A stretch of DNA of 64,000 nt, taken from the IMG/VR virus record IMGVR_UViG_3300021963_000050, positions 1-64,000 of that record. One strand, given 5' to 3'. The position numbers and the translations under genes are program-made. The notes under the pieces were generated by a model. The model was not told the origin of the DNA. It worked only from the letters and a program-made list of their open reading frames with translations, and searched no databases. Below, one piece after another: positions 26,200 through 63,050 of the stretch (its first letter is position 1; each line of letters starts with the position of its first letter). Source of the stretch: a virus.

Positions 26200-27057
26200 T
26201 TAAAATGGTAAATCGTCGTCTCCTTCAGCGTCTTCTTGTGGGTCAAACTCAGGAGCTGGTGATTTCTTAACGGGTGTTGATGGTTTCGCAATCTCAAACT
26301 CTTCTGTAGAATTTGATACGTATTTACCAGTTGTAGTATCCCATCTTGGAACTTCACCTCTTGCAACCATTTCCAAATATTCTTCAGGTTTTTTAGAATA
26401 TACATCAGACCAAGTCAATTCATCTTTTAACCAAGTTGACGCAACATCTGAATCTGTGTGTAATGGAGATTGGTCTTCAGGGATGATAGATGTGATTGTA
26501 GTATATTCTCTACCATTACCAGCTTTGGTAAGGTTAAGGTTGATGATTAAATCTCTACCTTTTTGTGGGTCGGTGATATCACCTTTGTTTTTGAAAAGAG
26601 GGTAGATTTTATCCAACACACCTTCATTTTTGGTGTTGTGTTTAAATCTCCAAAATTTAACTCCATCTTGTTCTCTTTCTCGGTCGATAACTTTCACAAT
26701 GTAAAATTTACGTGAACGATACTGACGAGCCAAAACCTTGTCTTGTTCATCACCCGTCATAATCAAACCTTCATAAACCTCATTTAAAGGTGAACGTTTT
26801 CCGTCTTTGCTCGGGTCGTAAAGTTTTACCCAATTACCATCTATTTGTACTTCATGGAAGTAAGCTTCTTTAAATGGTGAACCACCATCGTCAGATGGAA
26901 GGATTCTAATTCTTCTTTCACCACTTCTCTCACCCTTAGGTAAAACGGTGGTAAAATACTTTTTCATTCTATCCTCTTGGGATACCTTGTTTGCACTGCC
27001 GCCTGCGGCTTGTTTGTTCTTTTCGTACTGTGCCAGTACTGATTCTACTGTTGACAT
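26200..27057 (-). CDS. gp32: single-stranded DNA-binding protein gp32
   Basis: A 285-residue helix-destabilising protein. The N-terminal segment (VESVLAQYEKNKQAAGG) corresponds to the cooperative domain. The OB-fold core contains RRIRILPSDD, FHEVQIDGNWVKLYDP, DREREQDGVKFWRFKHN and the long lysine/arginine loop strands. The C-terminus EDAEGDDDLPF is the acidic tip typical of gp32 and bacterial SSB, used to recruit partners. The protein contains no cysteine at all, so the zinc module of T4 gp32 is absent. It is the first gene of the replication operon, behind a host-type promoter and before a strong terminator. Confidence 0.92.
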   Translation of the reverse strand: MSTVESVLAQYEKNKQAAGGSANKVSQEDRMKKYFTTVLPKGERSGERRIRILPSDDGGSPFKEAYFHEVQIDGNWVKLYDPSKDGKRSPLNEVYEGLIMTGDEQDKVLARQYRSRKFYIVKVIDREREQDGVKFWRFKHNTKNEGVLDKIYPLFKNKGDITDPQKGRDLIINLNLTKAGNGREYTTITSIIPEDQSPLHTDSDVASTWLKDELTWSDVYSKKPEEYLEMVARGEVPRWDTTTGKYVSNSTEEFEIAKPSTPVKKSPAPEFDPQEDAEGDDDLPF

Positions 27058-27095: not shown

Positions 27096-27126
27096 AAAGT
27101 ATAGACAAAAAAAGTCAGATTACAAA
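27096..27126 (-). promoter_or_regulatory. gp32: Bacteroidota-type promoter of gp32
   Basis: Minus-strand TTTG (27126-27123), exactly 19 bases, then TATACTTT (27103-27096), ending 38 bases before the gp32 ATG. The spacing and both boxes match the known Bacteroidota TTTG-N19-TAnnTTTG pattern with one mismatch. The TTTG box sits in the hairpin of the preceding terminator. Confidence 0.75.
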
Positions 27127-27134
27127 ATCTGACT
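27107..27134 (-). terminator. terminator before gp32, possibly bidirectional
   Basis: Perfect 9-bp stem AGTCAGATT / AATCTGACT (27113-27121 and 27126-27134) with a 4-base loop. On the minus strand seven T residues follow; on the plus strand CTCTTTTTTTT follows. It ends the late transcript of the small-protein genes at 27165-28361 just before the gp32 promoter. Confidence 0.85.
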
Positions 27135-48162: not shown

Positions 48163-48167
48163 TTATT

Positions 48168-48174: not shown

Positions 48175-48198
48175 GTTCATTTATTGATTCTATTTTGG

Positions 48199-48206: not shown

Positions 48207-48215
48207 AGTTATTGT

Positions 48216-49970
48216 ATGCATAATAAGGTTCCTGAAATAGAGGCGAGGGAAATTTTATCTACTTACGAAGGTTTTAACAACCAATTAATCGAGTGGAAAA
48301 GAAAATTAATTGAATTAAAAGGTTTTCAATTAACAAGACCCCAAGCCGAGTATGTTTTAAAGTACCACGAGGTTGTTCCCCGTGTTGCTAAAAAATATAT
48401 TAATATTGTTGAGGGGTTTGGTGAAAAACTTATGGAATCTAAACACCTAACAAAACCACCTGAAAAAATTTGGTGTGAAAAATTGTTATGTGAAAGTGAA
48501 ATGGCATACCATATATGGGGTAAAGTTTTTGAAACTGAAAAAAATTACTCTATGTGGTTACCAAAATCCGCAATCATTCAAGAGGAAAAAAAATTAAATA
48601 GGGAGGTTGATTATTCTCCATATGATAAAAGACCACCGTTACCCCATCAAAAAGTTGCAATTGAAAAATTATTAGCCAATGATAAATTCATTTTGGCTGA
48701 TGATATGGGATTAGGAAAAACCACATCCGCAATTATTGCATCTTTAGAAAGTGGTGCAAAAAAGATTTTGATAATATGTCCCGCATCGTTAAAAATAAAT
48801 TGGCAGAGAGAAATTGAGAACTACTCAAATAGAAAAACATTAATTGTTGAGGGACGTAAATGGGGGTCAACTTTTGATTATTACATTATCAACTATGATA
48901 TTGTAAAAAATTATCATTCAACAGAAACACCCGAAATTGGTCAGGAAAATAACAATTCAATTATTAATGAAAAATTTGATTTAGCGATTGTTGACGAAGC
49001 TCATTACATTTCAAATACCACGGCACAACGAACTAAATTAATTAACGATATTTTAAAAAACATACCGAAAGTTTGGTTACTTACAGGTACACCAATGACA
49101 TCAAAACCAATTAATTATTATAATCTTTTAAGAATAGTTAATTCAAACGTCACATTAAATTGGCAGGGTTATGTTAGAAGGTACTGTGGTGGATATCAAT
49201 TTACTGTAAACAAAAAGAAAATTTGGAACACAGGCGGTGCAACTAATTTAGACGAACTTAGAATGAGAACTAAAAATCTTGTTTTAAGAAGAATGAAAAC
49301 CGATATATTGGATTTACCAGATAAAATTATCACCCCAATTTTCTTAGATTTAAAAAGTACATATTACGATGAAGAATTAGAAGATTTTTTAAGGATTACA
49401 AGTGAAGCGAAAAATAAAGAATCTTTGAGTATTACTATAAATCGTTTGATGAAAGTAAGACAAATTGTTTCACAGGAAAAAATTAATTATACCTGTGAAC
49501 TAATTGATAGATGTTTAGAACAAGGAAAAAAAGTAATCGTATTCACAAACTTTACCATGTCTTTAGACACGTTACATGAGAAGTATAAGAAAAACTCTGT
49601 AGTATTGGATGGTAGAATGTCTAAAGAAAAAAGACAACAATCTGTGGACCGTTTTCAAAATGAAGACAAGGTAAAGATATTCATCTCAAATATCGTAGCC
49701 GGTGGTGTTGGTATCACCTTAACCGCAGCTGAGGTTGTAATTATGAATGACTTATCGTTTGTACCCGCTCATCACAGTCAAGCTGAGGACAGGGCTTTCA
49801 GATATGGACAAAAGAAAAATGTATTGGTTTACTACCCAATATTTGAAAACACTATTGAGAAAATAGTGTACAATATGTTACAGAAGAAAAAGAATATTAT
49901 TGACCAAGTTATGGGCGACGGGGATTTCTCAGAGAGTTTTGCTCAATCACTTCTCAAAGAGATTCTTTAA
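48216..49970 (+). CDS. SNF2-family DNA helicase/translocase
   Basis: A 584-residue protein from the ATG at 48216 (MHNKVPEIEA); a TTG 21 bases upstream is less likely. The motor is complete: Walker A ADDMGLGKTT (about 161-170), IICPASLKINWQREI, DEAH box VDEAHYI (about 258-264), VWLLTGTPM, then the second RecA lobe with IVFTNFTMSL, VLDGRMSKEKRQQSVDRFQ, GGVGITLTAAEVVIM and QAEDRAFRYGQKKNV. This is the SNF2/SMARCAL1-like layout used for fork remodelling and annealing; in T4 the equivalent role is played by UvsW. The N-terminal 130 residues may bind DNA. Its end overlaps the convergent next gene by 24 bases. Confidence 0.9.
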   Translation: MHNKVPEIEAREILSTYEGFNNQLIEWKRKLIELKGFQLTRPQAEYVLKYHEVVPRVAKKYINIVEGFGEKLMESKHLTKPPEKIWCEKLLCESEMAYHIWGKVFETEKNYSMWLPKSAIIQEEKKLNREVDYSPYDKRPPLPHQKVAIEKLLANDKFILADDMGLGKTTSAIIASLESGAKKILIICPASLKINWQREIENYSNRKTLIVEGRKWGSTFDYYIINYDIVKNYHSTETPEIGQENNNSIINEKFDLAIVDEAHYISNTTAQRTKLINDILKNIPKVWLLTGTPMTSKPINYYNLLRIVNSNVTLNWQGYVRRYCGGYQFTVNKKKIWNTGGATNLDELRMRTKNLVLRRMKTDILDLPDKIITPIFLDLKSTYYDEELEDFLRITSEAKNKESLSITINRLMKVRQIVSQEKINYTCELIDRCLEQGKKVIVFTNFTMSLDTLHEKYKKNSVVLDGRMSKEKRQQSVDRFQNEDKVKIFISNIVAGGVGITLTAAEVVIMNDLSFVPAHHSQAEDRAFRYGQKKNVLVYYPIFENTIEKIVYNMLQKKKNIIDQVMGDGDFSESFAQSLLKEIL

Positions 49971-51101
49971 TGTATTCATCATAAAGTCAATGTCTTCTTG
50001 TTTTTTTGAGATGTTTTGAATTATCTCCACCCAAACATTGTAAATTTTTTGAATATCAAAATCTTCACTGTTTGAAGGTAGATTAACAATAACTTTATTT
50101 TCATCTTTAATAAAATTCAGATTCGTTTCCTCAGAAACTTCAAGTACAAACTCAACCTCATTTTTAGAACAATACATAAAAAACTCAAAGAAAATTTTTG
50201 AGTTAAACATGTCATCAATTTTTTCTTGCATCAATATGTTGTTTTTATTATATGTATACCAACCGTCCGATTGATTTATTATGGTATCTTCCTTTAGATA
50301 TAGAAAAATCATTTTATCAGGACTAACTGTATTGAATTTGAAATTGTAATTCAATGATACTAACACCAAAAAGTCAATACCTTTACCTATATAATCTTTT
50401 ACATCTATAATGTTTTTAAAACTGTTCCCTTGAAACTTTACAACTTTACTTTGTATTTTTTTTACTTTTGTTTCGTCTTCAATATTAACAGTAAACAAAT
50501 CACATCCATTAACCATATCAATTGACGAACCTCTAACTAAAGAGGTTCTATATATTTTAGCGGTCTTTATATTTTTTTTGAAATGATATTCAATACAAAG
50601 TTCACCATAAGTTCCTGAACCAATTGTCTTGGATGCAACATGAAAAAGTTCATAAAGAAAATCACTTGGGCCAAGTAACCTATGGTCAACAAACACTCTG
50701 TCTTTGTAATGTCTCAACCATTTAAAGTAATTCTTTATTTCCTTTTCAATATAATCAGGTGAATTATTTTCAAAAACAATTTCAGTTAATGGTTCACCAT
50801 TAAATTCATTAATCCCTTTTAAAAAATAATCTTGAAAAATCCATTCATTTAATTTTTCAACAATTTTTATATTAACAAAGTAATTTGTATTAAATTGATT
50901 TACTGGTGACCAAGAACCCTTTGAAGTTAGCACACCATAAGTTCTATTCTTTTCGCAGAATCCATACTGATTTATATTTCTATAACACTCCCGAAAAACC
51001 TCCCGCCATTCATCCATAAAAAGGTCTTTTATTGGACCTTTTATTGTACAAATTCTTTTTATATGGTTTTCAATGTTTCTTAGATTCCCGGTAGAATACA
51101 T
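49947..51101 (-). CDS. unknown protein, possible PD-(D/E)XK nuclease
   Basis: A 384-residue Lys/Phe/Asn-rich protein with no firm family. The middle shows a plausible PD-(D/E)XK core: an acidic helix YGELCIEYHF (about 162-171), GCDLF (Asp about 199) and KIQSKVVKF (Q-x-K about 216-218), in the usual E-x(n)-D-x(n)-Q/E-x-K order, preceded by the strand-turn RGSSIDMVN. I infer a nuclease fold. It is a lone minus-strand gene between two plus-strand genes, with the best Bacteroidota-type promoter in the window 21 bases before its ATG, so it is probably expressed early. Codon use is similar to the surroundings. Confidence 0.5.
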   Translation of the reverse strand: MYSTGNLRNIENHIKRICTIKGPIKDLFMDEWREVFRECYRNINQYGFCEKNRTYGVLTSKGSWSPVNQFNTNYFVNIKIVEKLNEWIFQDYFLKGINEFNGEPLTEIVFENNSPDYIEKEIKNYFKWLRHYKDRVFVDHRLLGPSDFLYELFHVASKTIGSGTYGELCIEYHFKKNIKTAKIYRTSLVRGSSIDMVNGCDLFTVNIEDETKVKKIQSKVVKFQGNSFKNIIDVKDYIGKGIDFLVLVSLNYNFKFNTVSPDKMIFLYLKEDTIINQSDGWYTYNKNNILMQEKIDDMFNSKIFFEFFMYCSKNEVEFVLEVSEETNLNFIKDENKVIVNLPSNSEDFDIQKIYNVWVEIIQNISKKQEDIDFMMNTLKNLFEK

Positions 51102-51121
51102 CAGTATTTAGAATATTAAAA

Positions 51122-51152
51122 CAAATATACAGATATTTATTGGTAAATCAAA
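51122..51152 (-). promoter_or_regulatory. perfect Bacteroidota-type promoter of the putative nuclease
   Basis: Minus-strand TTTG (51152-51149), exactly 19 bases, then TATATTTG (51129-51122): both boxes and the spacer match the TTTG-N19-TAnnTTTG consensus with no mismatch. A plus-strand TATTTAT element for the divergent gene lies inside the spacer. Confidence 0.8.
51134..51140 (+). promoter_or_regulatory. TATTTAT element, 15 bases before the ATG at 51156
   Basis: Plus-strand agaTATTTATTGG, overlapping the spacer of the divergent host-type promoter. Early and late transcription would therefore compete here. Confidence 0.5.
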
Positions 51153-51155
51153 ATA

Positions 51156-52274
51156 ATGGCAACAACTGTAATTTCAAATGCTGAAAAACAAAAACTTTAC
51201 ACTCAAGTTTTTCACTTATTAGGTTTACCGGTGAGAGGTGTTGAACTTACGGAGGAACAAATGGATACCTTTTTAGAATTAGCGGTATCGGAGTATGAAC
51301 AATATGTGAGTGATTGGTTAATTGAATCACAGTGGTCAGCACTCGCTGGATTAAATGTTGATACTCAATCTTTAACCAGAGCTTTTACAACAAGAAGTTT
51401 AGATTACGAAACACAATATACTCACTCTTATTCTAAAATCGTTGGTCTTCAAACAGGTGGTGATAGTGAATTAAAAAAAGATTATTTCTCGTTAACCGCT
51501 AACACTCAAACATATACAATTCCTGCTGGTAGAGAAATAAACGAATTATTATGGTTCTCAAGAGCGGAATTAACCGATTCTATCGTTGACCCATTTTTAG
51601 GTGGATTTGGTGGTCTTGGTGGTGTTGCGTTCGGTGGTGTCGGTGGTTTTGCACAACAAGGTTCTTCGGGTTCATACTTTATGTTACCCGCCTATGACTT
51701 ATTGTTAAGAATGGGTGATAGAAATATCAAAAACCGATTAATAGGTGGAGATTTAACATACAGAATTACCGCAGGACCAAATGGAACTAAAATAGTTCAC
51801 CTATATAACGTACCTGGCGGTCGATTTGATTTTGGTTCAATACAGAATAACAGACAAAAAGTTTGGTATTGGTACTATGATACCACATCTCTTGACACTT
51901 GTTTAGATAAGAATAGTGGTATTGTTAAACTACCATCAGATGTTGAAACTGAAGAGTTAACATGGGATATGTTAAATAAACCCGCACAAAACTGGGTTAG
52001 AAAATATCTTATCGCGTATTCAAAAGAAGGTTTAGGTAGAATATGGGGTAAGTTCTCAGGAGACTTACAAGTACCTGATAGTCCAATAAAACTTGATTAT
52101 TCATCTTTACTACAAGAAGGAAAAGATGAGAAATTAAAACTTGTTGAGGAGTTAATGAATAGATTAGAAAGATTAAGACCTGACAAATTATTGGAAAGAA
52201 AAGGAATGGAAGCTGAAAACCTAAATAAGGCTTTAAAGTACAGACCATTCCAATCCCCATTCAACGTAATTTAA
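51156..52274 (+). CDS. neck/head-completion protein, gp13-like
   Basis: A 372-residue protein. The N-terminus FHLLGLPVRGVELTEEQMDT and the following EYEQYVSDWLI fit the gp13 neck family start (L-G-x-x-x-x-x-V-E-L-x-x-E-Q-x-x). The middle has the DYFSLTANTQTYTIPAGREI strand pair and a Gly-rich loop (GGFGGLGGVAFGGVGG, about 150-165). The C-terminal helix pattern around WDMLNKPAQNWVRKYLIA and GLGRIWGKFSG also fits. gp13 and gp14 close the head after packaging. It is unusual that this gene is on the plus strand, 3 kb from the gp14- and gp15-like genes. Its end overlaps the polymerase gene by 4 bases. Confidence 0.5.
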   Translation: MATTVISNAEKQKLYTQVFHLLGLPVRGVELTEEQMDTFLELAVSEYEQYVSDWLIESQWSALAGLNVDTQSLTRAFTTRSLDYETQYTHSYSKIVGLQTGGDSELKKDYFSLTANTQTYTIPAGREINELLWFSRAELTDSIVDPFLGGFGGLGGVAFGGVGGFAQQGSSGSYFMLPAYDLLLRMGDRNIKNRLIGGDLTYRITAGPNGTKIVHLYNVPGGRFDFGSIQNNRQKVWYWYYDTTSLDTCLDKNSGIVKLPSDVETEELTWDMLNKPAQNWVRKYLIAYSKEGLGRIWGKFSGDLQVPDSPIKLDYSSLLQEGKDEKLKLVEELMNRLERLRPDKLLERKGMEAENLNKALKYRPFQSPFNVI

Positions 52275-55168
52275 ATGTTTGTTGCGTGGTACGCAAAATC
52301 ATTTCCATTTGTTTGAATTATTTCATCCTCATTACTTTTAATACTTTCGGCTTGAAGAGCGACAACTTTTCTATTTAAATCAACCCAATAAGGGTCTGCT
52401 AATTTTAAACTGTCTTCAACGTACATATAGAACGGGTCTCTGTTCACTCTATTCCAAAACAAGACCTCACTATCTGATAAGGTCATAACCTCATCGTATT
52501 TGTCTTGACCATCTTCTTTGAGTGGAAACCCACTTACTAACTCACATTGAGTCCTTGTAAAGTATTGTCTGTCTTCAGGTTTTTCAACCAAAATATCGTG
52601 ACGTATTTCAGGACTAAACACCACCAAAAGAGGTTCAATTCTTTTATTGAAATTTGTTAGATATCTCGCAACATTATAGTCACCCGTCATATCAGGATTA
52701 TTACTCAATTCTTTTTCGGATATCATGTAACAATTAATTTCAATATAATCAGGCGGTACTGGTTTATTGTATTTTAATAAAAATTCTTCTTGGTATTTTT
52801 TAGTCGGTTTACTTATCTTTTGAACATCACCATCTGATTTTTTTGTACCATTATTGATGTAATAAATTGTCTCACCTAAAGTTGCGGGATAGTTATTTTG
52901 TATAACCAGCTCCATGTGAGCTTGTCGAGACATTAAAGAACCTGCTTTTGTGGTCTTTTTGATGTGTTTTTTATAGTCTTCTACAGATTGTTTTACACGA
53001 GACTTATTCGCCATCTTAGACAATGGTATTTGTTTATTATAAATTTGTTGGACGTATCTATAATAAAGTTCAACGAAAGATAAACCATCACCATTTAATA
53101 AATGTTTCAAACCCTCATCCAAAAATTCAACAACATATTGTTGTAGTTTTTTAGATTTGATAGTATTACCGGTTAGTTTAATCTTTTCTTTTCCCTTCTT
53201 CAGAAGTTTAATGATGTAGTTCTTTCTTGATACGTTAATACACGCGGGTGCGGTATAGTCAATATCAAGACCCATTTCATTTCTCATAAAGGTATCATTG
53301 AATTCTGCAGTGTCCGCTTCGATTCCAATGTACTCTTTACCTTCTTCAACCAATTCGTTTAAACCTTTACCGATGTAAACATGAGTATCAATATCATCGG
53401 GGGTTGAAAAGTTCACACCGTCAGTATCCATAACCAAAGGTACATACCCCTTTTTCTCAAAGAACATAATCATCATACGAAGACATTGTCTTCCGGTACA
53501 AGTGATTGTCTCACCCATATTCATATCTCCCCACGGAAATACTTGAGGGGCGGAAAGTGAACCAAAATACGCGTTGATAAAAATCTTAATTGGTAATTGT
53601 TTTCTATCATACATCTCCGCTTCAATAGGATTTGTTTTAGACAATTCACCCGCAAGTCTTTTATATTTGATACGAATGTTTCGGAAATACTTTAACATCG
53701 ATTTCTGAACACCCATAACATCACATTCAGGGAAAACATCGTACACCAATTGAATTGATGGATAAAGAGACGCGTAGTCAAATTTTACAATGTTTTTTGA
53801 ATAACCAACGTTTAACAATCTTGATAAACCACCAGTAATTGCTCTCTTCTCATCTTTTGTTGGTATCGCCAATCCATTTTCATAGGACCAAGCCAACATG
53901 ATAATTTTCCAAAGAGTCGCAGTACCCATAGTTGCAATCCTTTCATAGGTTGTTGGTACCAATTTAGAAAGTAAAAAAGTTGATTGAGAGAAGGAATCAT
54001 CCACAATCATTGTTTCGTACAAGTCATCGTCAAGATATTGTTCTACAATTCTTTCACCTGGCCAAATTTCATACTTACCGGGATACTTGTCTAAAAGATT
54101 TTCCGTTCCCGGCTCACCTATCTTTTTATATTTACCTGTTTTAGGGTTGATGTAGTAACTATCATTTTCCAAATAAATTTTAGAAATGAATGCACCATCA
54201 ACATATACACGATTTGGTTTTTCTTTTTCCAAATACTGTGTAATATACTTCAAACCCCACGATTTAATTTCAGAGTTAATTGCTTGGGCTCTTCTTACAG
54301 CGTGTGCAATATCAACAATATTGTGTCCCCATATTATATGTTGGGTATAAGGTTCGACCTCATTTGCTAATTTAAGAACCCCTTCTTTTTGTTTAATACC
54401 ATCAGAGGTTAGAATCGCGGTACACTCTTCAATATCAACACCAAGAATTTCTGCTCTTTTAAGAATAAAAGGAAAGTCAAATGACGCTGAATTATAACCA
54501 CCAATAATTGTTGGTTTTAAATCCTTTATGATTTCAAAAAATTGTTCAATACATTTTTTTTCACCATCAGGACCAAAAGCTGGAATTGTTTTTTGTAAAC
54601 CACGATTGTCTTTTACTCCAATAAGAATTATCTCATTGGTTTCGGGTTCAAGACCCGTGGTCTCAATATCGAATACAAAACGATGAACACCCGAATAATC
54701 GTCAATACCCTTGAATAATCTTTTTTTCTTTTGAATCAGATATTGTTCAACAGGTGACAGTATCGTAAACAAATGTCTAAATTTTTCACCCCAAGGGTCT
54801 ATTCCACCTTGTTTAAAAAAGTTAATCAATTCTCGATAACCCTTTAGACTTTTAACCAAATAACACTGACCATTTTCAAGTCTTTCGTTACCATGGGTTT
54901 CAAGTTTATCGATTATGATACCATACTCCCCCATTTTTTTCTTTTGTAAGGACTTACTTCCTTGATAAAAATTGCAAGAACTTAAGTCACCCACCCAAAG
55001 AAATGGAGTTAATGAATCAGGTTTAACAACCTTACCCCTTACAGGGTCTTGAATAATTTTGTAGATTTTGTTGTGTTGATAATCGTATTCCACCCCAACA
55101 ATGAATTCTTCGGGGTCCCAACCATTTAAAAAGTTCTCGATTACCTCTTGAGAAATTACTTCTGACAT
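52271..55168 (-). CDS. gp43: DNA polymerase, family B (gp43)
   Basis: A 965-residue replicative polymerase (T4 gp43 has 898). Proofreading exonuclease: Exo I FVFDIETTGLEP (about 164-175) and Exo II IIGGYNSASFDFPF. Polymerase: motif A VKFDYASLYPSI (about 460-471), motif B KIFINAYFGSLSAP (about 526-539), and motif C VMDTDGVNF (about 578-586), where both catalytic Asp are kept although the usual S after DTD is G. The C-terminal region contains the thumb and a possible clamp-binding tail. It faces the gp13-like gene with a 4-base overlap and has a host-type promoter plus a perfect dyad upstream. Confidence 0.95.
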   Translation of the reverse strand: MSEVISQEVIENFLNGWDPEEFIVGVEYDYQHNKIYKIIQDPVRGKVVKPDSLTPFLWVGDLSSCNFYQGSKSLQKKKMGEYGIIIDKLETHGNERLENGQCYLVKSLKGYRELINFFKQGGIDPWGEKFRHLFTILSPVEQYLIQKKKRLFKGIDDYSGVHRFVFDIETTGLEPETNEIILIGVKDNRGLQKTIPAFGPDGEKKCIEQFFEIIKDLKPTIIGGYNSASFDFPFILKRAEILGVDIEECTAILTSDGIKQKEGVLKLANEVEPYTQHIIWGHNIVDIAHAVRRAQAINSEIKSWGLKYITQYLEKEKPNRVYVDGAFISKIYLENDSYYINPKTGKYKKIGEPGTENLLDKYPGKYEIWPGERIVEQYLDDDLYETMIVDDSFSQSTFLLSKLVPTTYERIATMGTATLWKIIMLAWSYENGLAIPTKDEKRAITGGLSRLLNVGYSKNIVKFDYASLYPSIQLVYDVFPECDVMGVQKSMLKYFRNIRIKYKRLAGELSKTNPIEAEMYDRKQLPIKIFINAYFGSLSAPQVFPWGDMNMGETITCTGRQCLRMMIMFFEKKGYVPLVMDTDGVNFSTPDDIDTHVYIGKGLNELVEEGKEYIGIEADTAEFNDTFMRNEMGLDIDYTAPACINVSRKNYIIKLLKKGKEKIKLTGNTIKSKKLQQYVVEFLDEGLKHLLNGDGLSFVELYYRYVQQIYNKQIPLSKMANKSRVKQSVEDYKKHIKKTTKAGSLMSRQAHMELVIQNNYPATLGETIYYINNGTKKSDGDVQKISKPTKKYQEEFLLKYNKPVPPDYIEINCYMISEKELSNNPDMTGDYNVARYLTNFNKRIEPLLVVFSPEIRHDILVEKPEDRQYFTRTQCELVSGFPLKEDGQDKYDEVMTLSDSEVLFWNRVNRDPFYMYVEDSLKLADPYWVDLNRKVVALQAESIKSNEDEIIQTNGNDFAYHATNI

Positions 55169-55198
55169 ATCGTATATTTTTGTTTTGACATATTTGCT

Positions 55199-55215
55199 TA
55201 CAACACCGTGTTGTA
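55199..55215. promoter_or_regulatory. gp43: perfect dyad (operator candidate) upstream of gp43
   Basis: TACAACAC-C-GTGTTGTA: 8-base arms around one central base, 31-47 bases before the polymerase ATG and 14 bases downstream of the promoter box at 55229. A one-base loop cannot form an RNA hairpin without opening the stem, so a dimeric DNA-binding repressor is a better guess than a translational operator. Confidence 0.5.
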
Positions 55216-55228
55216 GTTTGCCTTATAA

Positions 55229-55259
55229 CAAGTATACGAAATTACTACCAAATATCAAA
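55229..55259 (-). promoter_or_regulatory. gp43: Bacteroidota-type promoter of gp43
   Basis: Minus-strand TTTG (55259-55256), exactly 19 bases, then TATACTTG (55236-55229), one mismatch to TAnnTTTG. It ends 60 bases before the ATG. The TTTG box overlaps the end of the preceding gene. Confidence 0.75.
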
Positions 55260-55623
55260 ATATGGTAATAAATAATTTTTCCTTTATCGGAAGTATCAGT
55301 TTTGTTGTTGGATTTAAATTGGTATCTAAAAATTGTACGGTAATCTTACCCTCGTATTTACCAATTTTTGATGTTTGAGATTCTGTAAATCTGTGAGTTA
55401 TATAATACTCGTCAGTGGTTTGATTGTATTTTTTATCTCTAGTTGTTATTAAACAATCTGAATTTAATATTTCAGGTTCACCCGTTTTTGCATCGTACAT
55501 ATCAAATGTGATGTCACAACTTTCTAACAAATCATTAAATCCGGATTTGTCATTTTTACCATCATCAATTAACCTCATTTTAAGTATTGGGTCAGATGCT
55601 CCTTGTCGTATAAAAAATTCCAT
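55255..55623 (-). CDS. BppU-N-like virion protein
   Basis: A 122-residue beta-rich protein. The start FIRQGASDPILKMRLIDDG and the later KIGKYEGKITVQFLDTNL fit the BppU N-terminal / Ig-like fold found at the base of phage receptor-binding complexes (an R/K-x-G-D/S-x-x-P-x-L-x-x-x-L opening and a G-x-Y-x-G-x-x-x-x-x-F strand near the end). It lies in the adhesin cluster with the PA14-tip fibre gene upstream and a TATTTAT element 8 bases before the ATG. A baseplate-to-fibre adaptor is the likely role. Confidence 0.5.
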   Translation of the reverse strand: MEFFIRQGASDPILKMRLIDDGKNDKSGFNDLLESCDITFDMYDAKTGEPEILNSDCLITTRDKKYNQTTDEYYITHRFTESQTSKIGKYEGKITVQFLDTNLNPTTKLILPIKEKLFITIF

Positions 55624-55631
55624 ATTGATTA

Positions 55632-55638
55632 ATAAATA
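55632..55638 (-). promoter_or_regulatory. TATTTAT element, 8 bases before the ATG at 55623
   Basis: Minus-strand aaTATTTATTAA between the PA14 fibre gene and the BppU-like gene. Confidence 0.5.
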
Positions 55639-55656
55639 TTATTCTTTTTATTTTAA

Positions 55657-56691
55657 TTAAAATCCATTTGTTGAAGGATTATAAAAAACTAAACCTGTCA
55701 CATTTGTTGTTTTTGTTATGGTCGGCGATGAGTAACTAAATGTCATAACATCACCACCACCAATTTCACCAAATTGTATTCTTATTGGATAGTAATTTCC
55801 AGCAACTAATGAAAACGTAGCCGATACTTCCTGAACCCCATGAGCACCACCATTGTTTATATTTGAATTAGCGGTGGTAAAACCTGATAATGCATTTGCA
55901 CCAATCCAAAGATAAGAACCATCATCACTTGATAAGAAGAATGTATATGTTTCTGTTGTTGTTGCCTTAAAATACCCCAACCATTGACAACTAAAATCAG
56001 ACCCGTCATTACTTGATGGTTCAGTTATTGAAGTTGTTTGAACCGAGGTGGCAGGATTTGTACCAAAGGTCGTTGGGGTTGCAGTTGCGAAAAACGCCGG
56101 ATTTTCGCTATGATAACCAGAATATGTTGTTTTATATAAACCAGCACTAAACGCACTTGTTGGAGTTGGAGTTGGTGTTAATGTTGGGGTGATAGTTGGT
56201 GTTAATGTCGGTGTTATTGATGATGTTGGAGTGATAGTTGGTGTTATAGAAGGTGTTCTACTTGGTGTTAATGAAGGTGTGACAGTTGGTGTTGGTGTAA
56301 CTGTAGGTGTTAGTGAGGGAGTAACGGAACTTGTCGGTGTAATTGATGATGTCAACGACGGTGTGACCGACGAGGTAAGAGAAGGTGTTACCGAAGGTGT
56401 TCTACTTGGTGTTAATGAAGGTGTTATACTTGGTGTTGGTGAAGATAATACGGTAGACGGGGTTGTGGAACTTGTTGGTGTCGGTGAAGGTCCCGTTTCA
56501 ATAACATATAAAGTACATGTACTACCAAAAGCCGGAAAAAACAATGAATATGTCCCATAAAAATAAGGTGCAACATAATCGTATGGTAAAACTTGTGTAC
56601 CCAAATTAATAGTCCCACCCGTATCGGGATAGTATGTAATAACCGCCGATTGACCAGTATAATTTGTTGAGACTATTTTTAAAGTATCCAT
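55657..56691 (-). CDS. fibre/adhesin with Pro-Thr stalk and PA14-like tip
   Basis: A 344-residue protein in three parts. Residues 1-68 form a head paralogous to that of the repeat fibre at 3155 (shared [13 protein letters not shown] and FP, 32 of the first 59 residues identical by hand count). Residues about 69-178 form a Pro/Thr/Ser stalk of [12 protein letters not shown] units. Residues about 180-344 form a PA14-like domain: LYKTTYSGYHSENP, SCQWLGYFKATTTETYTFFL, SSDDGSYLWIG, the G-A-H-G loop and YYPIRIQFGEIGGGD. PA14 domains often bind glycans. It is the complete, compact version of the giant repeat fibre and probably binds the host surface. Confidence 0.75.
   Translation of the reverse strand: MDTLKIVSTNYTGQSAVITYYPDTGGTINLGTQVLPYDYVAPYFYGTYSLFFPAFGSTCTLYVIETGPSPTPTSSTTPSTVLSSPTPSITPSLTPSRTPSVTPSLTSSVTPSLTSSITPTSSVTPSLTPTVTPTPTVTPSLTPSRTPSITPTITPTSSITPTLTPTITPTLTPTPTPTSAFSAGLYKTTYSGYHSENPAFFATATPTTFGTNPATSVQTTSITEPSSNDGSDFSCQWLGYFKATTTETYTFFLSSDDGSYLWIGANALSGFTTANSNINNGGAHGVQEVSATFSLVAGNYYPIRIQFGEIGGGDVMTFSYSSPTITKTTNVTGLVFYNPSTNGF
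56158..56488 (-). repeat. Pro-Thr stalk repeat of the PA14 fibre
   Basis: Same kind of 12-base unit as at 1-2960, here about 110 residues long. The plus strand shows the matching GVTEGV-type frame, which is not a gene. Confidence 0.85.
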
Positions 56692-56723
56692 TTATTTAAA
56701 ATATAATATTTTGTTTAGTATTT

Positions 56724-58094
56724 TTAAAGTCCTACCATGCTATCCACACAATCTTCAACACATTCAATTATATCGTAATTTGGTTTAATATCAACCAAAT
56801 AATGATGTCTTACCCTTACGTAGTTTAATGGTTCTTGATAATATTGGACTCTTTTAAAATTAAAACAAGAGGTACCCATATTATGAATTCCACCTGAATA
56901 TTGAGTACCACCAGCCCATGATTGTATAAATGGTTGGTCACCTCTAGTTGATGGTATAACTTCTTCCCATCCTTTTAATTTATAGATTGTTCTGCCGTTT
57001 AAATAAATTTTTAAAGTACCCAATCTTCTATTTCTTTCTAACGCCCATTTCTTATTTAATTCTTCCGCAGTTGTATAAATAGTTGTTTGTGTTGATGTTA
57101 CTGCGGTGATAACAGTATCGGTATATGGAATAGTTTTTATTCCCGGTATTAAATCATTCCACCCACCATCATTTTCTAAATTACAATCCGTATAATACTT
57201 ATCTCGTTCAAAAGTAATTGTAACATTAAAATCTTTTGACGTACCACTAACACATAATACGGGTGTTTGACCCGATGAAGTATAATATGATTCTGTATAA
57301 CCACTATCGGTCACACAAACACCTGAATATCTAATTGCTCTCCATTGTATTCTACCATCATTTGTGAATGAAAATGATAGATTATTATCTGCGTAATTTG
57401 ATATTGAACTCTCATTTCTAACACCTAAATAATAAATCGTCCTTCCACTTGTCCAATTAGAACCATCTTTATTAAGTACCAAATCAATTGTCCAACCTTT
57501 TTCATTTCTTCTCTGTACTTTGTAAGAACAATTATCAGTTCCAGCACCATGATTTATTTGATATGCCCATGGTTTTGCGGTTGGAATTGGGTCTTGAGGA
57601 CAACAATTATCACTGATAATTTCTGTGACACAAGGATATTTGGCACCAATCCCATTAAAATTTGCAACATTTAGAGAATTTGGATTGGATGCGGGGTCAT
57701 TATAAATGTTCGCATTATGAACAAAATAATGTTTATAACCACTTCCATCGATGTATTCATAAACATCATTCTCTAAAATTAAATCTGAATTTTGTAGTTG
57801 GGTTGTAAATCCACTATAAGGTAAAACCCAAGACCAACCTGAAAATAATGAACCTGTTATATAAGAGGTTAAATTCACTTCAAGTAGGGATATAGTATCC
57901 CTTACACAATCAGTTCCGGTCATACCTGTTGTGTTAATAGTCAATCCTGTATATGATATACTATTATCCAAATCCAAAACCAAACTATCATAATCTAATT
58001 CAGTTTTAGAAATTTCGTAATCGTAATATTCCGAAGAATCGAGTTGTAAATCTAATTTACTCCCCCAAAATTTAAGTATGTTTTGACTATTCAT
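56724..58094 (-). CDS. virion protein with lectin-like (ConA/LamG) region
   Basis: A 456-residue beta-rich protein with many Tyr, Ser, Thr and about ten Cys. The middle (GWTIDLVLNKDGSNWTSGRT, FSFTNDGRIQWRAIRYSG) and the later TLKIYLNGRTIYKLKGWEEV followed by GGIHNMGTSCFNFKRVQYY follow the strand order of a concanavalin/LamG-like sandwich, a fold used for sugar binding in fibre proteins. It is the first gene of the three-gene adhesin cluster, with a TATTTAT element 8 bases before the ATG. A role in receptor binding or fibre structure is inferred. Confidence 0.6.
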   Translation of the reverse strand: MNSQNILKFWGSKLDLQLDSSEYYDYEISKTELDYDSLVLDLDNSISYTGLTINTTGMTGTDCVRDTISLLEVNLTSYITGSLFSGWSWVLPYSGFTTQLQNSDLILENDVYEYIDGSGYKHYFVHNANIYNDPASNPNSLNVANFNGIGAKYPCVTEIISDNCCPQDPIPTAKPWAYQINHGAGTDNCSYKVQRRNEKGWTIDLVLNKDGSNWTSGRTIYYLGVRNESSISNYADNNLSFSFTNDGRIQWRAIRYSGVCVTDSGYTESYYTSSGQTPVLCVSGTSKDFNVTITFERDKYYTDCNLENDGGWNDLIPGIKTIPYTDTVITAVTSTQTTIYTTAEELNKKWALERNRRLGTLKIYLNGRTIYKLKGWEEVIPSTRGDQPFIQSWAGGTQYSGGIHNMGTSCFNFKRVQYYQEPLNYVRVRHHYLVDIKPNYDIIECVEDCVDSMVGL

Positions 58095-58102
58095 GCTATT
58101 CT

Positions 58103-58109
58103 ATAAATA
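58103..58109 (-). promoter_or_regulatory. TATTTAT element, 8 bases before the ATG at 58094
   Basis: Minus-strand agaTATTTATAG in the 57-base gap between two divergent virion genes; it pairs with a plus-strand copy at 58127. Confidence 0.55.
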
Positions 58110-58126
58110 TCTTTCCTTTCTTTTGA

Positions 58127-58133
58127 TATTTAT
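58127..58133 (+). promoter_or_regulatory. TATTTAT element, 18 bases before the ATG at 58152
   Basis: Plus-strand tgaTATTTATAT, back to back with the minus-strand copy at 58103-58109. Confidence 0.55.
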
Positions 58134-58151
58134 ATTAAAAAAGATATTTGC

Positions 58152-58910
58152 ATGGATAAATACATTAAAAATATTATTGAGGAAACTTTTGCGTCCAAAA
58201 AACAACAAAGATTCTTTTATGCCAAGGCGAACGACAAATCAACATCAAAGAAAGAAAGAAACAAATGGTCCAAATGGGCTAAAGAATATTCTGACGATAC
58301 CGACTTTGAAAAAATACCAGAAAAGGTTGAAACTGAGGTAGATGAAATAGTTGACGAAAAAGGTAATATCGCTAGAAGAAAAACACCAAATACAAAATCA
58401 AGTAAAGGTGGTTCAAAATCAACGACTGACAAAGTGGTATACACTGGAGCTGGGTCAATGGGTATTCACGGTGTTCATGGTACTCACACATCTTTAAGAT
58501 ATTGGGCGGAATCTGATTTAAGTAAAGCTTTAGGTTATAAAAATACTTTGGGTCAAGATGAGGACATTGAAGATGCATATGAATATTTTGAAGATGACCT
58601 TGGTATGGGTGATGATGAAAGTAAAGAAAGATTATCATCATATGGTTACGATGAAAATTTAAAAGGTGATAAAGTAAGATTAATAGAAAACCCAAAAAAA
58701 TTTGTAAAAGATTACGTTGAAAGTGTCATAAGAAAAAAATCATCCTCAGAGGATTTGGTTAAAAAAGACCAAACCGAAGACATTAAGGGTGAATTAAATC
58801 CAATTATCAAAAGACAAATCACTTCTTTAAAAAATACTTTAGTTAAAAATAATTTGTCAGTTGAGGATGTAATTGACATTCTTAAATCAGAAGACGAAAC
58901 CGATGAATAA
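58152..58910 (+). CDS. unknown charged protein, first gene of plus-strand late block
   Basis: A 252-residue highly charged protein. The N-terminal ASKKQQRFFYAKAND motif is a short pattern shared by several small phage proteins. A glycine/histidine stretch (GAGSMGIHGVHGTHTSLRYW, about 98-117) may bind metal or form a turn. An acidic stretch (QDEDIEDAYEYFEDDLGMGD) and a helical tail follow. No family is recognised. It shares an 8-base overlap with the next gene, and a late-type element lies 18 bases before the ATG. A capsid-internal or scaffold-like protein is a guess. Confidence 0.6.
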   Translation: MDKYIKNIIEETFASKKQQRFFYAKANDKSTSKKERNKWSKWAKEYSDDTDFEKIPEKVETEVDEIVDEKGNIARRKTPNTKSSKGGSKSTTDKVVYTGAGSMGIHGVHGTHTSLRYWAESDLSKALGYKNTLGQDEDIEDAYEYFEDDLGMGDDESKERLSSYGYDENLKGDKVRLIENPKKFVKDYVESVIRKKSSSEDLVKKDQTEDIKGELNPIIKRQITSLKNTLVKNNLSVEDVIDILKSEDETDE

Positions 58911-59400
58911 AGAATTAAAAGGAAGGATTTTTGATATTCCTCAGGACATTTTAGATAAGATAAACCATACAGTAGTTGGTTTAAATAGTGAAAATGTGCG
59001 TGGTATTCAAAGAGCTAAAAAACTTTTAATCGATAAAAAAGTAAAATACGGTCAACTCAAGAGGATAATTCATGATATTCAAAACATGGATAAAATGAAT
59101 GAAAAAGTTAAATATGACTTATGCGGTGGAGATTTGATGGAAAAATGGGCTAAACAATTTTTACAAGGAGAAAGAGATTTAATAAGTAATAGGAAAGACT
59201 CCAAAAAAAGGGCGGATGATATAACATCAATGACTGGTGAGAGAAAAAACAGTCACTTGAAATCACACACAAAAAGATTTAGTTTCAAAGTCCCAATAAA
59301 TTTGGTTAAAAGTAATTCCCACAAAACCAGTGTTTCACCTTTAACATCTATGAAACTATTCGAAGAGATTGATAAAATAAAAAAATTAATTAGTTATTAA
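58903..59400 (+). CDS. unknown basic protein
   Basis: A 165-residue protein from the ATG at 58903 (MNKELKGRIFDIPQDIL), overlapping the previous stop by 8 bases. The frame is open 10 codons further up, but the overlap start fits the tight packing of this block. The protein is basic and helical (QRAKKLLIDKKVKYGQLKRI), with a Lys/Ser/His-rich middle (HLKSHTKRFSFKVP). It is not recognised. The neighbours are all virion-type genes, so a nucleic-acid-binding head protein is possible. Confidence 0.55.
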   Translation: MNKELKGRIFDIPQDILDKINHTVVGLNSENVRGIQRAKKLLIDKKVKYGQLKRIIHDIQNMDKMNEKVKYDLCGGDLMEKWAKQFLQGERDLISNRKDSKKRADDITSMTGERKNSHLKSHTKRFSFKVPINLVKSNSHKTSVSPLTSMKLFEEIDKIKKLISY

Positions 59401-59401
59401 T

Positions 59402-60067
59402 ATGCCAACACAATTAGAAATAATCGGAGACAGAGAAAGAAACCTTCTTGTATCAAGAAATGAATACAACTACGGGGATTTATATAGTTCAAGCAATACA
59501 GGTGCATTATCAGACGGTGACGAAAGAGGTAAGGGTGAATTAAGTGGTAGTATTGGTTCAAAAACCGATATCGGTGAAAGAACCTCATTACAATCCAAAA
59601 ACATTTATGGACCAACCAATCAGTACGGAAGTGGAAATGCTAACGCACTTTCGGATGGTGATGAAAAAGGTAAAGGAGAGTTAAGTGGTAATATAGGTTC
59701 TAAGACTGATATCACAGAAAGAAACACTCTTGTTGCTAAAAACGTCTACAATAATTCATTTCAATACTCATCAGGTAATCCTAACGCATTATCAGATGGT
59801 GACGAAAGAGGAAGAGGTGAAAACAATTCAGGTGGTGTTGGTACCTTAACCGATATCAATGAAAGAACCACTCTTATTGCTAAAAATATTTATAACAACA
59901 ATTTTGGTTACTCTTCTGGTAATCCCAATGCATTGTCAGATGGTGATGAAAAAGGACGAGGTGAAAACAATACAGGAGGTGTTGGTACTGTAACCGATAT
60001 TAACGAAAGAACTGTTTTAAAAGCAAAAAATAAATACGGTAGCACAAAAACATATCCCGATTTTTAA
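59402..60067 (+). CDS. four-repeat acidic protein, probable structural
   Basis: A 221-residue protein made of four tandem copies of a 47-48-residue unit; the word ALSDGDE begins at residues 35, 82, 129 and 177. Each copy continues (R/K)G(R/K)GE, a Gly/Ser/Thr stretch, TD(I)xER(T)xLxxKNxY and then a Tyr/Asn-rich linker. The regular length, acidic D-G-D loops and Gly content suggest a repetitive beta or calcium-binding-type fold. No family is recognised. It shares one base with the next start (TAATG) and is one base from the previous stop. Confidence 0.65.
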   Translation: MPTQLEIIGDRERNLLVSRNEYNYGDLYSSSNTGALSDGDERGKGELSGSIGSKTDIGERTSLQSKNIYGPTNQYGSGNANALSDGDEKGKGELSGNIGSKTDITERNTLVAKNVYNNSFQYSSGNPNALSDGDERGRGENNSGGVGTLTDINERTTLIAKNIYNNNFGYSSGNPNALSDGDEKGRGENNTGGVGTVTDINERTVLKAKNKYGSTKTYPDF

Positions 60068-60918
60068 TGATAAATTTCGAGTCAATATTAACAAACATTT
60101 TATCTGAAGCACCTTCGAGAGGAACACAAAAAACTCTTGAATATGCTATTAAGAATAGAATGCCCGTTTCTTTTGACTATAGAGGTCCAAGAGGTGAAGT
60201 ATTACCAGGAAGAAGAATTAAAACAGAATTAGTTGCGTCAGGCCTAACAAAAAAAGGAAACTTATCATTTAGAGGATGGGTTCAACCACCGTCGGTGTCT
60301 AAAAAGGGATTTAAAGAACATGGTTGGAGAACTTTTATACTGGATAGAATATCTGCAGGTTCAATACAAGTTTATGAAGATGAACAGTTTGATAATAAAA
60401 GACCGGGTTACAAAGAAGGTGATGATAGTAGTTTTTCCACTACATACGTAACAAGTGATTGGGGAACTACACCACCAGCACCACAAGAGAGAAAACCAAG
60501 TAAAACACCCGTACCTAAACAAGAACCCGAAAAACAAAAATTACCCGAACCAAAACCAAAAGAAAAACCATCAGCGTCACCCATTGAAGTACCAAAGAGA
60601 GAAATTGAAGTGTTTAACGATTTAAAAACCAAAATCAAAGTTGTTGACAATATTAAACAAATTAGTCCTGACGATTTTAAAAATGCAATTGACGATTTGT
60701 ACAAAAAGAAAATGGATGATTGGAAAAAATCACAAATCGATTTAGGTGGTAACACTAATGCCGGTGAGGGAACAAGAAGAAGAATTGAAAAGGATTCTGA
60801 ATCTGATTTGGACAGATTATTAAAACAAGATAATATCAAAATAGTCGAACCATCATCAGAAGAAACAGTGGAATTACAAGAACAATTAAATAGAATCAAG
60901 ACTTTAATTTTCTTTTAA
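60067..60918 (+). CDS. WYL-domain-like protein with proline-rich linker
   Basis: A 283-residue protein. Residues about 20-105 fit the WYL fold: LEYAIKNRMPVSFDYRGPRG, then GRRIKTELVA, LSFRGWVQP and WRTFILDRISAGSIQVY, the usual A-I-x-x-x-x-x-v-x-f-x-Y opening and R-x-F-x-L-D-R-I close. WYL domains bind ligands or nucleic acid in regulators. A Pro/Lys linker (about 135-175) and an acidic/helical C-terminus follow (EGTRRRIEKDSESDLDRLL). Here it lies among virion-type genes and lacks a helix-turn-helix, so it is not an ordinary WYL transcription regulator. Its job is unknown. Confidence 0.65.
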   Translation: MINFESILTNILSEAPSRGTQKTLEYAIKNRMPVSFDYRGPRGEVLPGRRIKTELVASGLTKKGNLSFRGWVQPPSVSKKGFKEHGWRTFILDRISAGSIQVYEDEQFDNKRPGYKEGDDSSFSTTYVTSDWGTTPPAPQERKPSKTPVPKQEPEKQKLPEPKPKEKPSASPIEVPKREIEVFNDLKTKIKVVDNIKQISPDDFKNAIDDLYKKKMDDWKKSQIDLGGNTNAGEGTRRRIEKDSESDLDRLLKQDNIKIVEPSSEETVELQEQLNRIKTLIFF

Positions 60919-60945
60919 AAATACTTATTTTATAAAAAAATCAAT

Positions 60946-61524
60946 ATGGAAAAAACAGGAACAGGGGTACTATCACAAAACGATTTGATGCAAAGATTAG
61001 TACAAGCGAAAAAAATTTTAAATAAAGTAGAAAATGGTGATTACGAAAGAGGTAATGTAAATGAAGATATATTAAGGACTAACCCTGAAGACCTCATGTC
61101 GACCGAAAATTCCGCACCAATAAGACAACCACAACAACCCAATTTTCAAAAAATACAAGAGTCTAAATTACCTGAAGCAATTAAAAGAGCAATGATTGAA
61201 AATCCCATACCTCAAATTAGTTTATCGGATTCATTGGATTTAAATTTTGTTGAAAAAACAAAAAAATTAATGGAGAACGAAGGTGTGTCAACTAAAAAAT
61301 CGTCACCACAAAAAGGTTCTTCAGTTGATAGTTCAGATTTAGTAAAACAATTAACCCCCATAATTGAAAACATTGTAAGAAAGACTGTTGTTGAAATTTT
61401 GGACAAGAAGTTAAATCAAATATTAACCGCACAACAAACCATGTCCATCAACGAGAACTTGGTTTTAAAAGTGGGTGACTCCGTTTTTAAAGGAAAAATT
61501 ACGGGTGTAAATAAATCAAAGTAA
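60946..61524 (+). CDS. unknown helical protein, end of the late block
   Basis: A 192-residue protein. A helical N-terminus (LMQRLVQAKKILNKVENGDY) is followed by a Pro/Gln-rich stretch (QPQQPNFQKIQ), then a coiled coil at about 130-165 (LVKQLTPIIENIVRKTVVEI) and a short beta end (LVLKVGDSVFKGKITGV). It is not recognised. It follows the WYL gene after 27 bases, completing the five-gene plus-strand block before the glycosyltransferase promoter. The composition is reminiscent of head-core or scaffold proteins. Confidence 0.55.
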   Translation: MEKTGTGVLSQNDLMQRLVQAKKILNKVENGDYERGNVNEDILRTNPEDLMSTENSAPIRQPQQPNFQKIQESKLPEAIKRAMIENPIPQISLSDSLDLNFVEKTKKLMENEGVSTKKSSPQKGSSVDSSDLVKQLTPIIENIVRKTVVEILDKKLNQILTAQQTMSINENLVLKVGDSVFKGKITGVNKSK

Positions 61525-61525
61525 G

Positions 61526-61556
61526 TTTGACTTTTCGAATTTTTTTCTTATACTTT
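61526..61556 (+). promoter_or_regulatory. Bacteroidota-type promoter of the glycosyltransferase unit
   Basis: Plus-strand TTTG (61526-61529), exactly 19 bases, then TATACTTT (61549-61556), one mismatch to TAnnTTTG. It ends 21 bases before the ATG at 61578 and drives the early-type run glycosyltransferase to dUTPase. Confidence 0.75.
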
Positions 61557-61577
61557 ATAAAAAAGGAAAGAATTTGA

Positions 61578-62798
61578 ATGTCAAAGATTAGAATTTTAGC
61601 AATACCACCCGATACCCATGGTGTAGGTAAATATAGAATATTAGACCCATATAAATTTATTGGAGACCATTACTCAGATGAGTTCCATATTGATATCGCA
61701 CTATCAGTTGAGAACAATGATAATTTCTTTAAGAACTATGACATCGTTGTTTTCCATAGTTTTATCCATCAAACAAGCCACGAAGAAAATATTTCAAGAA
61801 TTAAATGGTTAAAATCCCAAGGGATTAAGACCGTTATGGATATTGATGACCACTGGTCTCCTGACCATAGACACCCAATGTATTTTCATATCAAAGAAAA
61901 TGAATTGCCAAAAAAGAAGGTGGACATGATGAAGGAATCAGACTATGTTACATGTACCACTGAACATTTTGCGAACGGACTTAGAAAAAAACTTAATTTA
62001 AAAAATGTTTTGGTATTTCCAAACGCAATTGACCCAAATGAAAGTCAATTCCAACCAAAACCAACACAATCTGATAGACTTAGATTCGGATGGTTAGGTG
62101 GTTCAACACACTTACATGATTTAGAACAAATTAGAGGTGGTATCTCAATGATTGCAAATCAATATGATAACGTACAATTCGTTCTTTGTGGTTATGATTT
62201 AAGAGGTTCAATCACTGAAGTAAATCCACAAACCAACGAAAGAAAAACAAGACCAATCCAACCAATGGAAACGGTTTGGTACAAATACGAACAAATTTTC
62301 ACTGATAACTATAAAACTGTTGATGGAGACTATAAATCATATTTAATGAATTTCTCACCAACACCTGAAATTGACGTTAGTGATAAAAAATATAGAAGGG
62401 TATGGACTCAACCAATTGGTAGATATGGTGCAAATTATAATTTATTTGACGTATCTTTAGCACCCGTGATACCTTCAGAATTCAATTCATATAAATCACA
62501 ATTGAAAATAATCGAATCTGGTTTTCACAAAAAACCAATCATTGCTAGTGAAACGATGCCATATACCATTGATTTAAAAAACGCTTATAAAGAGGGTAAA
62601 TTACTGGATGATGGTAATGCTTTATTAGTACATGAAAATAAAAATCATAAACTTTGGGCAAAATACATGAAATTACTTATTGAAAACCCAAATATGGTTG
62701 AAGATTTAGGTAATAAACTCTATGAAACCGTAAAAGACAAATATTCTTTAGTTACGGTATCTAAAAACAGAACAGAATTTTTCAAATCAATAATTTAA
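61578..62798 (+). CDS. GT-B glycosyltransferase (GT4-like)
   Basis: A 406-residue enzyme with two Rossmann lobes. The first lobe has DIVVFHSFIHQTS and VMDIDDHWSP; the second begins RFGWLGGSTHLHDLEQI, typical of the GT4 linker, and contains FVLCGYDLRG. The sugar-nucleotide-binding region SQLKIIESGFHKKPIIASE (about 307-325) keeps the E-x7-E-like spacing of retaining GT-B enzymes. Substrate is not readable from sequence. Phage enzymes of this type modify either phage DNA bases or host surface sugars; no base-hydroxylating enzyme is in the window to support the first. It starts an early-type unit. Confidence 0.8.
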   Translation: MSKIRILAIPPDTHGVGKYRILDPYKFIGDHYSDEFHIDIALSVENNDNFFKNYDIVVFHSFIHQTSHEENISRIKWLKSQGIKTVMDIDDHWSPDHRHPMYFHIKENELPKKKVDMMKESDYVTCTTEHFANGLRKKLNLKNVLVFPNAIDPNESQFQPKPTQSDRLRFGWLGGSTHLHDLEQIRGGISMIANQYDNVQFVLCGYDLRGSITEVNPQTNERKTRPIQPMETVWYKYEQIFTDNYKTVDGDYKSYLMNFSPTPEIDVSDKKYRRVWTQPIGRYGANYNLFDVSLAPVIPSEFNSYKSQLKIIESGFHKKPIIASETMPYTIDLKNAYKEGKLLDDGNALLVHENKNHKLWAKYMKLLIENPNMVEDLGNKLYETVKDKYSLVTVSKNRTEFFKSII

Positions 62799-62811
62799 AA
62801 ACAAAAAAAAC

Positions 62812-63048: not shown

Positions 63049-63050
63049 TT

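Follow-up and report, generated by a model that had tools for sequence, protein, structure and literature searches.

In Bacteroidota, promoters of the primary sigma factor (sigma-ABfr) combine a -33 TTTG box with a -7 TAnnTTTG box, and a box spacing of about 19–21 is expected of them. Start-site maps of Flavobacterium johnsoniae give the -7 box as TAHHTTTG with a nearly invariant last G and a hardly visible -33 box, and place transcription starts 4–5 nt after the -7 box (PMC6847099); those of F. psychrophilum show TAnnTTTG variants (PMC9723704). In T4, the DNA polymerase gp43 represses its own synthesis by binding a hairpin located about 40 nt ahead of the gp43 start codon (PMC3014915). Our literature searches found no description of the early promoters of Bacteroidota T4-like phages. 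Here we analyse a T4-related phage of probable Bacteroidota, most likely Flavobacterium-type, host and conclude, with a probability of roughly 80%, that four sites proposed as promoters in it belong to one promoter class and that its gp43 leader carries a structured RNA, a candidate translational operator.

The phage contig comprises 115,864 bases; bases 1–64000, hereafter the window, are the stretch in which the promoters were proposed, and the remainder served as unseen test data. The initial annotation had listed four host-type promoters in the window, and direct reading of the sequence confirmed all four at their positions. The sites and the genes behind them are as follows.

26200..27057, minus strand: gp32, single-strand DNA-binding protein (PHROG 1192, E = 1e-11)
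27096..27126, minus strand: gp32 promoter, TTTG-N19-TATACTTT, read directly
49947-51101, minus strand: gene called a putative nuclease in the initial annotation, with the promoter 51122..51152 upstream
51122..51152, minus strand: promoter TTTG-N19-TATATTTG before gene 49947-51101, read directly
52271..55168, minus strand: gp43, family B DNA polymerase, 965 aa (PHROG 262, E = 3e-57)
55229..55259, minus strand: gp43 promoter, TTTG-N19-TATACTTG, read directly
61526..61556, plus strand: glycosyltransferase promoter, TTTG-N19-TATACTTT, also written TTTGAC-N17-TATACTTT, read directly
61578..62798, plus strand: glycosyltransferase gene (PHROG 7162, E = 7e-41)

The claim that only early-type genes lie behind these sites is broadly true, with gp32, gp43 and the glycosyltransferase in the window and a Clp-like ATPase, a kinase/RNA-ligase module and a tRNA array preceded by the same promoter class outside it. 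The nuclease label is without support: Pfam, PHROGs and the PDB gave no match for gene 49947-51101, its AlphaFold model is poor (pLDDT 49), and a D...QSK pattern in the alignment is only suggestive, so the identity was dropped. The tRNA array holds 24 genes at genome 103689-109363 (L083:19689 to L084:5363), parts of which are preceded by host-type sites, TTG-N20-TATCTTTG at 103371 and TTG-N19-TATCTTTG at 106514. Adjoining gp43, at window 55657-56691, is a GLEYA and PA14 domain protein, possibly a carbohydrate-binding virion protein.

The proposed consensus, TTTG-N19-TAnnTTTG, survived in part. TTTG and the 19-base interval are present at all four sites, whereas the TAnnTTTG box is exact only at 51152-51122, which had rightly been described as without mismatch; 55259-55229 departs from it at one position and 27126-27096 and 61526-61556 at two each, and the -7 box ends in G in two of the four. 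Taken at face value the pattern occurs at chance frequency (two exact matches in the window, one of them intragenic, against 0.98 expected; 22 matches with one mismatch against 22.5) and was discarded in that form. What the four sites share is TTTG, 19 bases and a TATA(C/T)TT box. The refined pattern TTTG-N19-TATA[CT]TT[GT], which was tightened on the four sites themselves, has six matches in the 115.9-kb genome against 0.33 expected from dinucleotide shuffles, and the remaining two lie outside the window:

80894-80924, minus strand: refined-pattern match
105106-105136, plus strand: refined-pattern match

All six are intergenic in a genome whose noncoding DNA amounts to 6–7%. A literature-style weight matrix built on TAnnTTTG was also tried and set aside; it yielded weak enrichment, at spacers 19–22, because it over-rewards the final G.

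The spacer is as reported in all four sites, but its being exactly 19 reflects how they were selected. Among noncoding, correctly oriented TTG...TATAYTT or TAnnTTTG sites of the phage's own genome, eight have a spacer of 19 and five of 20, with few at neighbouring lengths. Related contigs totalling 2.19 Mb contain, outside coding DNA, 35 distinct TATAYTT sites at spacer 19 and 37 at spacer 20, with 2–16 at others. With peaks at both lengths, the spacer of the class is therefore 19 or 20. The leaders of gp43 agree: of the 84 distinct ones with a -7 box, 34 carry TTG, at spacing 20 in 25 and 19 in 9, and never at 16–18 or 21–23. Within the 19–21 range expected of sigma-ABfr promoters, peaks thus occur at 19 and 20 only. 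Four noncoding TTG-N14-TATAYTT sites in the genome are unexplained by the promoter model and probably reflect chance or overlap with other sites.

Each site was then followed in relatives of the gene behind it. TTT[GT]-N19-TATATTTG is kept in all six distinct sequences found upstream of the so-called nuclease gene in 21 relatives. In 53 distinct sequences upstream of gp32, TATAYTT or TATATTA is kept and a T tract nearly always lies just upstream; this tract forms the tail of a terminator hairpin, and in relatives the hairpin changes in sequence but keeps its pairing:

27113..27134, minus strand: terminator hairpin AGTCAGATT-loop-AATCTGACT with a T-run, ending the upstream gene, read directly

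The TTTG of the gp32 promoter sits in the loop region of this hairpin, where TTT is conserved and G is not. For gp43 the -7 box is strongly conserved, and the upstream box varies between TTTG and T-rich sequence, with TTGAC(A/T) in distant relatives; decay of TTTG to TTT or a T-rich stretch is seen in gp32 relatives and in many gp43 relatives. Close relatives retain TTTGAC-N17/18-TATAnTT before the glycosyltransferase, as do L192 and L196, whose protein identity is about 47%; other distant relatives differ.

The same architecture recurs in Flavobacterium phage vB_FspM_immuto. There, TTG-N20-TATAYTT has 21 noncoding sites with 0–2 at every other spacer; spacer-20 sites of all kinds number 27, with TATATTTA as the typical box and A or T, never G, as the last base in all 27. 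The architecture TTG-N20-TATATTTA itself occurs about 25 times. The two phages share the boxes, the spacing class and a T(T)C directly before TATA, and differ in that immuto uses spacer 20, has a longer conserved downstream block (ggTAT), encodes family A polymerases and yielded no leader element. No clear 19/20 excess was seen in T4, Rhodothermus RM378, Pelagibacter HTVC008M, Synechococcus S-PM2 or Bacteroides crAss001, scanned for the TATATTT form only with coding and noncoding DNA pooled. Host-type TTG...TAHHTTTG sites in 33 Flavobacteriales genomic loci gave only diffuse peaks.

Together, genome-wide enrichment, the sharp peak at spacers 19 and 20, the conservation seen in relatives, and the conserved RNA (described below) whose start lies just downstream of one site make it well supported, at the level of sequence, that the four sites are early/middle-type promoters. 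The class itself exists, is intergenic, has a spacer of 19 or 20 and is conserved: TTG (often TTTG), 19 or 20 bases, TATA(C/T)TT, then G, T or A. It would drive early/middle genes, among them gp32, gp43, the glycosyltransferase and tRNAs, and the enzyme reading it would be host RNA polymerase carrying the primary sigma factor. Its relation to the sigma-ABfr consensus is close in several respects, namely a TTTG or TTG upstream box where this is kept, a TA..TT core, a spacing of about 19–20, AT-rich DNA between the boxes and no Shine-Dalgarno sites downstream. In contrast to that consensus, the phage box fixes positions 3–4 as TA and mostly has a final T or A where the consensus has an almost fixed G, and its upstream box and spacer are far sharper than those of F. 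johnsoniae. Compared with the published Flavobacterium consensus, the phage class is therefore similar and not identical, and because most boxes lack the final G, the description of the sites as host-type is only partly supported; of the proposed Bacteroidota primary-sigma pattern, the geometry agrees and the textbook consensus does not.

These comparisons bear directly on how the class might otherwise be understood. On one reading the sites are simply the textbook TTTG/TAnnTTTG promoters of the Bacteroidota primary sigma factor, their spacer always 19 bases. This fits the geometry and the evidence for a Bacteroidota host, and TAnnTTTG does stand 19 or 20 bases from TTG at 51122, 92437, 103371, 106514 and 109885; it is nevertheless a doubtful reading given the chance frequency of the consensus as first proposed, a spacer of 20 about as common as 19, the missing G in most sites and in all 27 of immuto, and the diffuse peaks in the Flavobacteriales loci. 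We regard as unlikely, too, a phage-adapted (middle) class dependent on a phage factor, as T4 middle promoters depend on MotA. In T4, gp32 and gp43 are middle genes, and neither the conserved T tract nor TATAYTT(T/A)A follows the host consensus, although TAnnTTTG is retained at a smaller group of sites in this genome; yet no MotA-like PHROG match was found among the genes scanned, which were part of the gene set, and immuto has the class in front of many small genes in a region that looks early, where it would need to work with unaided host polymerase.

Generic sigma-70-type promoters of the TTGACA-N17-TATAAT family would make the sites uninformative on the host phylum. The glycosyltransferase site can be read as TTGACT-16-TATACT, and the upstream box of the more distant gp43 relatives, which have TTGAC(A/T)-N17-TATATT, also fits such a class. 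Against this, TTG...TATAAT has no spacer peak in the phages examined, TTGACA-N16/18-TATAAT-like sites are not enriched (70 in window 48000-64000 against 75.9 in shuffles), immuto has mostly TTGC or TTGG in place of TTGAC, and T4, the sole Proteobacteria phage checked, lacks the 19/20 peak, all of which renders this reading very unlikely. Our preferred reading is one phage class for the four sites, with 19- or 20-base spacers and a resemblance to the host consensus.

This early/middle class is distinct from a late class marked by TATTTAT, which precedes structural genes (26 upstream regions against 1.3 expected). As in T4-type late promoters, which carry TATAAATA and go with the gp55 sigma factor, a separate late-type motif stands before structural genes; it differs in that the coding-strand motif here, TATTTAT(A), is the reverse complement of TATAAATA. 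A gp55-like late sigma gene is weakly indicated at genome 67681-68379 (L082:3681-4379; PHROG 234, E = 0.0046). Genome-wide, the form (G)ATATTTAT(A/T) lies 4–44 nt before many structural genes, and one copy falls within the spacer of an early promoter:

56724-58152 and 43375-46368 of the window, and 14351-16395 of L082: examples of the late-type motif
51132..51141, plus strand: GATATTTATT, late-type motif belonging to structural gene 51156-52274 on the opposite strand and lying within the 51122 promoter's spacer

GATATTTATT inside this spacer is conserved in relatives of the gene formerly labelled a nuclease. At window 51122-51156, the minus-strand early promoter and the late-type motif serving the head-tail adaptor gene on the plus strand thus overlap face to face, an arrangement that relatives share.

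Inspection of the leaders of 80 gp43 relatives revealed, between promoter and start codon, a conserved block of the form AAGRC-WAAYT-stem-loop-stem'-AAGCNAAT-RY-GTCA, which corresponds to a structured RNA at the 5' end of the leader. Its parts in the window are as follows.

55186..55224, minus strand: conserved structured RNA with which the gp43 leader opens, from covariation
55222-55220 with 55189-55187, minus strand: helix P1, from covariation
55215-55211 paired with 55203-55199 (extending to 55210 and 55204, respectively), minus strand: helix P2, from covariation

The element is 35–39 nt long and has two helices and an asymmetric internal loop whose conserved segments are WAAY and AAGCNAAT. 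It begins 4–13 nt past the -7 box in all but one of the leaders with a recognised box and ends 16–21 nt before the gp43 start codon. In 59 distinct element sequences, standard pairs fill 99.4% of cells (shuffled mean 65.4%), double changes occur in seven of the eight pairs, and the covariation score is 0.923 as compared with 0.04–0.22 for slid structures. P2, the inner helix, covaries strongly within the close gp43 family. P1 occurs in three interchangeable types, GRC/GUC, GUA/UAC and GGU/ACC, which track clades whereas P2 varies within clades; the independent changes in P1 are therefore few, perhaps two. A first test had suggested that the element is missing in distant gp43s. That result was overturned when a scan with filters off and a reading of the leaders uncovered a diverged form with complementary P1: the distant leaders, which come from marine relatives of contig L372 and from further gp43s about 57–61% identical to it, carry the element with GUA/UAC or GGU/ACC in P1, and all 43 distinct elements extracted from them are paired. 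The folding energy of the window leader is unremarkable (z -0.35), so the case rests on covariation and not on stability.

The element was found in L002-L081, L371-L377, L398-L407 and L418-L431 and is absent before the gp43 homologues L410-L416 and L379-L383, so gp43 does not always need one. In L376 and L377 (gp43 in G015 and G014), where the leader element is present, the gene is a 1327-aa frame, and a possible intein interrupts it as an insert near query residue 580-597. A pattern scan of a viral collection of 2.9 million contigs gave 55 matches, every one of them ending 17–19 nt before a gp43 start, with a pattern that was derived from gp43 leaders and does not itself require gp43 for a match. 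A covariance model detected the element once in the 115.9-kb genome. In 16 Bacteroidota genomes its lone match was weak, lay inside a transporter gene and was rejected as not credible. Rfam 15 has no gathering-score match in the window and nothing meaningful over the leader at E up to 10, and our literature searches turned up no published gp43 leader RNA of this type. Covariation thus shows the structure to be real; within the searches made it is specific to gp43, and Rfam does not contain it.

The gp43 transcript is predicted to start a few bases past the -7 box, at or just before the RNA element. If starts are spaced from the box as they are in F. johnsoniae (PMC6847099), the mRNA would begin almost directly with the element, and this position lends independent support to the promoter assignment. 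As to its function, we give roughly even odds, arguing by analogy, to a cis-acting translational operator that would most simply be bound by gp43 itself: polymerase in excess would bind the leader element and block ribosome entry. With its end 16–21 nt short of the start codon, the element would place any bound protein across the site where ribosomes land on this SD-less leader, and this overlap and the T4 precedent favour autogenous control; a protein other than gp43 is one alternative binder. The likeness to the gene 43 operator of T4 and RB69 extends to the same gene, a hairpin about 40 nt before the start (that of P2 is centred about 39 nt before the gp43 start codon) and an early/middle transcript. 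The T4/RB69 operator differs in being one hairpin with a conserved UAAC loop, whereas here there are two helices with a conserved internal loop and no Shine-Dalgarno sequence to occlude, and binding by gp43 is predicted by analogy. The T4 operator loop (UAAC/UAAA) is not present in the element, whose hairpin loop is variable; hence we propose operator-like working and not membership of the T4 operator family.

A compact single architecture, a conserved internal loop (AAG...AA...AGNNAAT) and a place at the very 5' end of the transcript would also suit a metabolite-sensing riboswitch or a 5'-end mRNA stabiliser in place of a protein-bound operator. Such a role seems unlikely to us, for the element was found only before gp43, the 16 Bacteroidota genomes hold no credible match, and the T4 precedent is protein binding (PMC3014915). 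It is more improbable still that the element represents a cis-regulatory RNA of a phage class not described before, one that responds to the state of replication or to a ligand such as a nucleotide and thereby sets polymerase synthesis right where an early transcript begins. The translational operator remains our preferred interpretation of the leader element.

The promoters had been put forward as the best evidence for the host phylum; better evidence comes from protein relatives and missing Shine-Dalgarno sites, both independent of the promoters. Above threshold among 50,697 phage records, the only gp32 homologues were those of Flavobacterium phage immuto and phage Mel-JY01; immuto is also among the nearest relatives for the major capsid and sheath proteins, and the nearest records to gp43 are Salinibacter phages. 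SD-like motifs precede 3 of 96 genes, compared with 2 of 96 in a control interval. These two lines independently suggest a Bacteroidota host. Because the promoter architecture is found in immuto and has no peak in the five unrelated phages, such a host is likely on sequence grounds. Relatives of gp43 in bacterial genomes were sought and none was confirmed, so there is no direct, prophage-based host assignment. Mel-JY01, recorded as a Microcystis phage (PP395634.1), is near in capsid, sheath and gp32 alongside Flavobacterium phages, and its host label may deserve a check.

The class provides a testable promoter definition for T4-related Bacteroidota phages, on whose transcription we found little in the literature searched, and it offers expression parts for Flavobacterium laboratory strains. 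The leader element shows that structured leader RNA on gp43 extends far outside the T4 group, where it takes another fold. If the element is an operator, autogenous control of the replicative polymerase would become comparable across phages.
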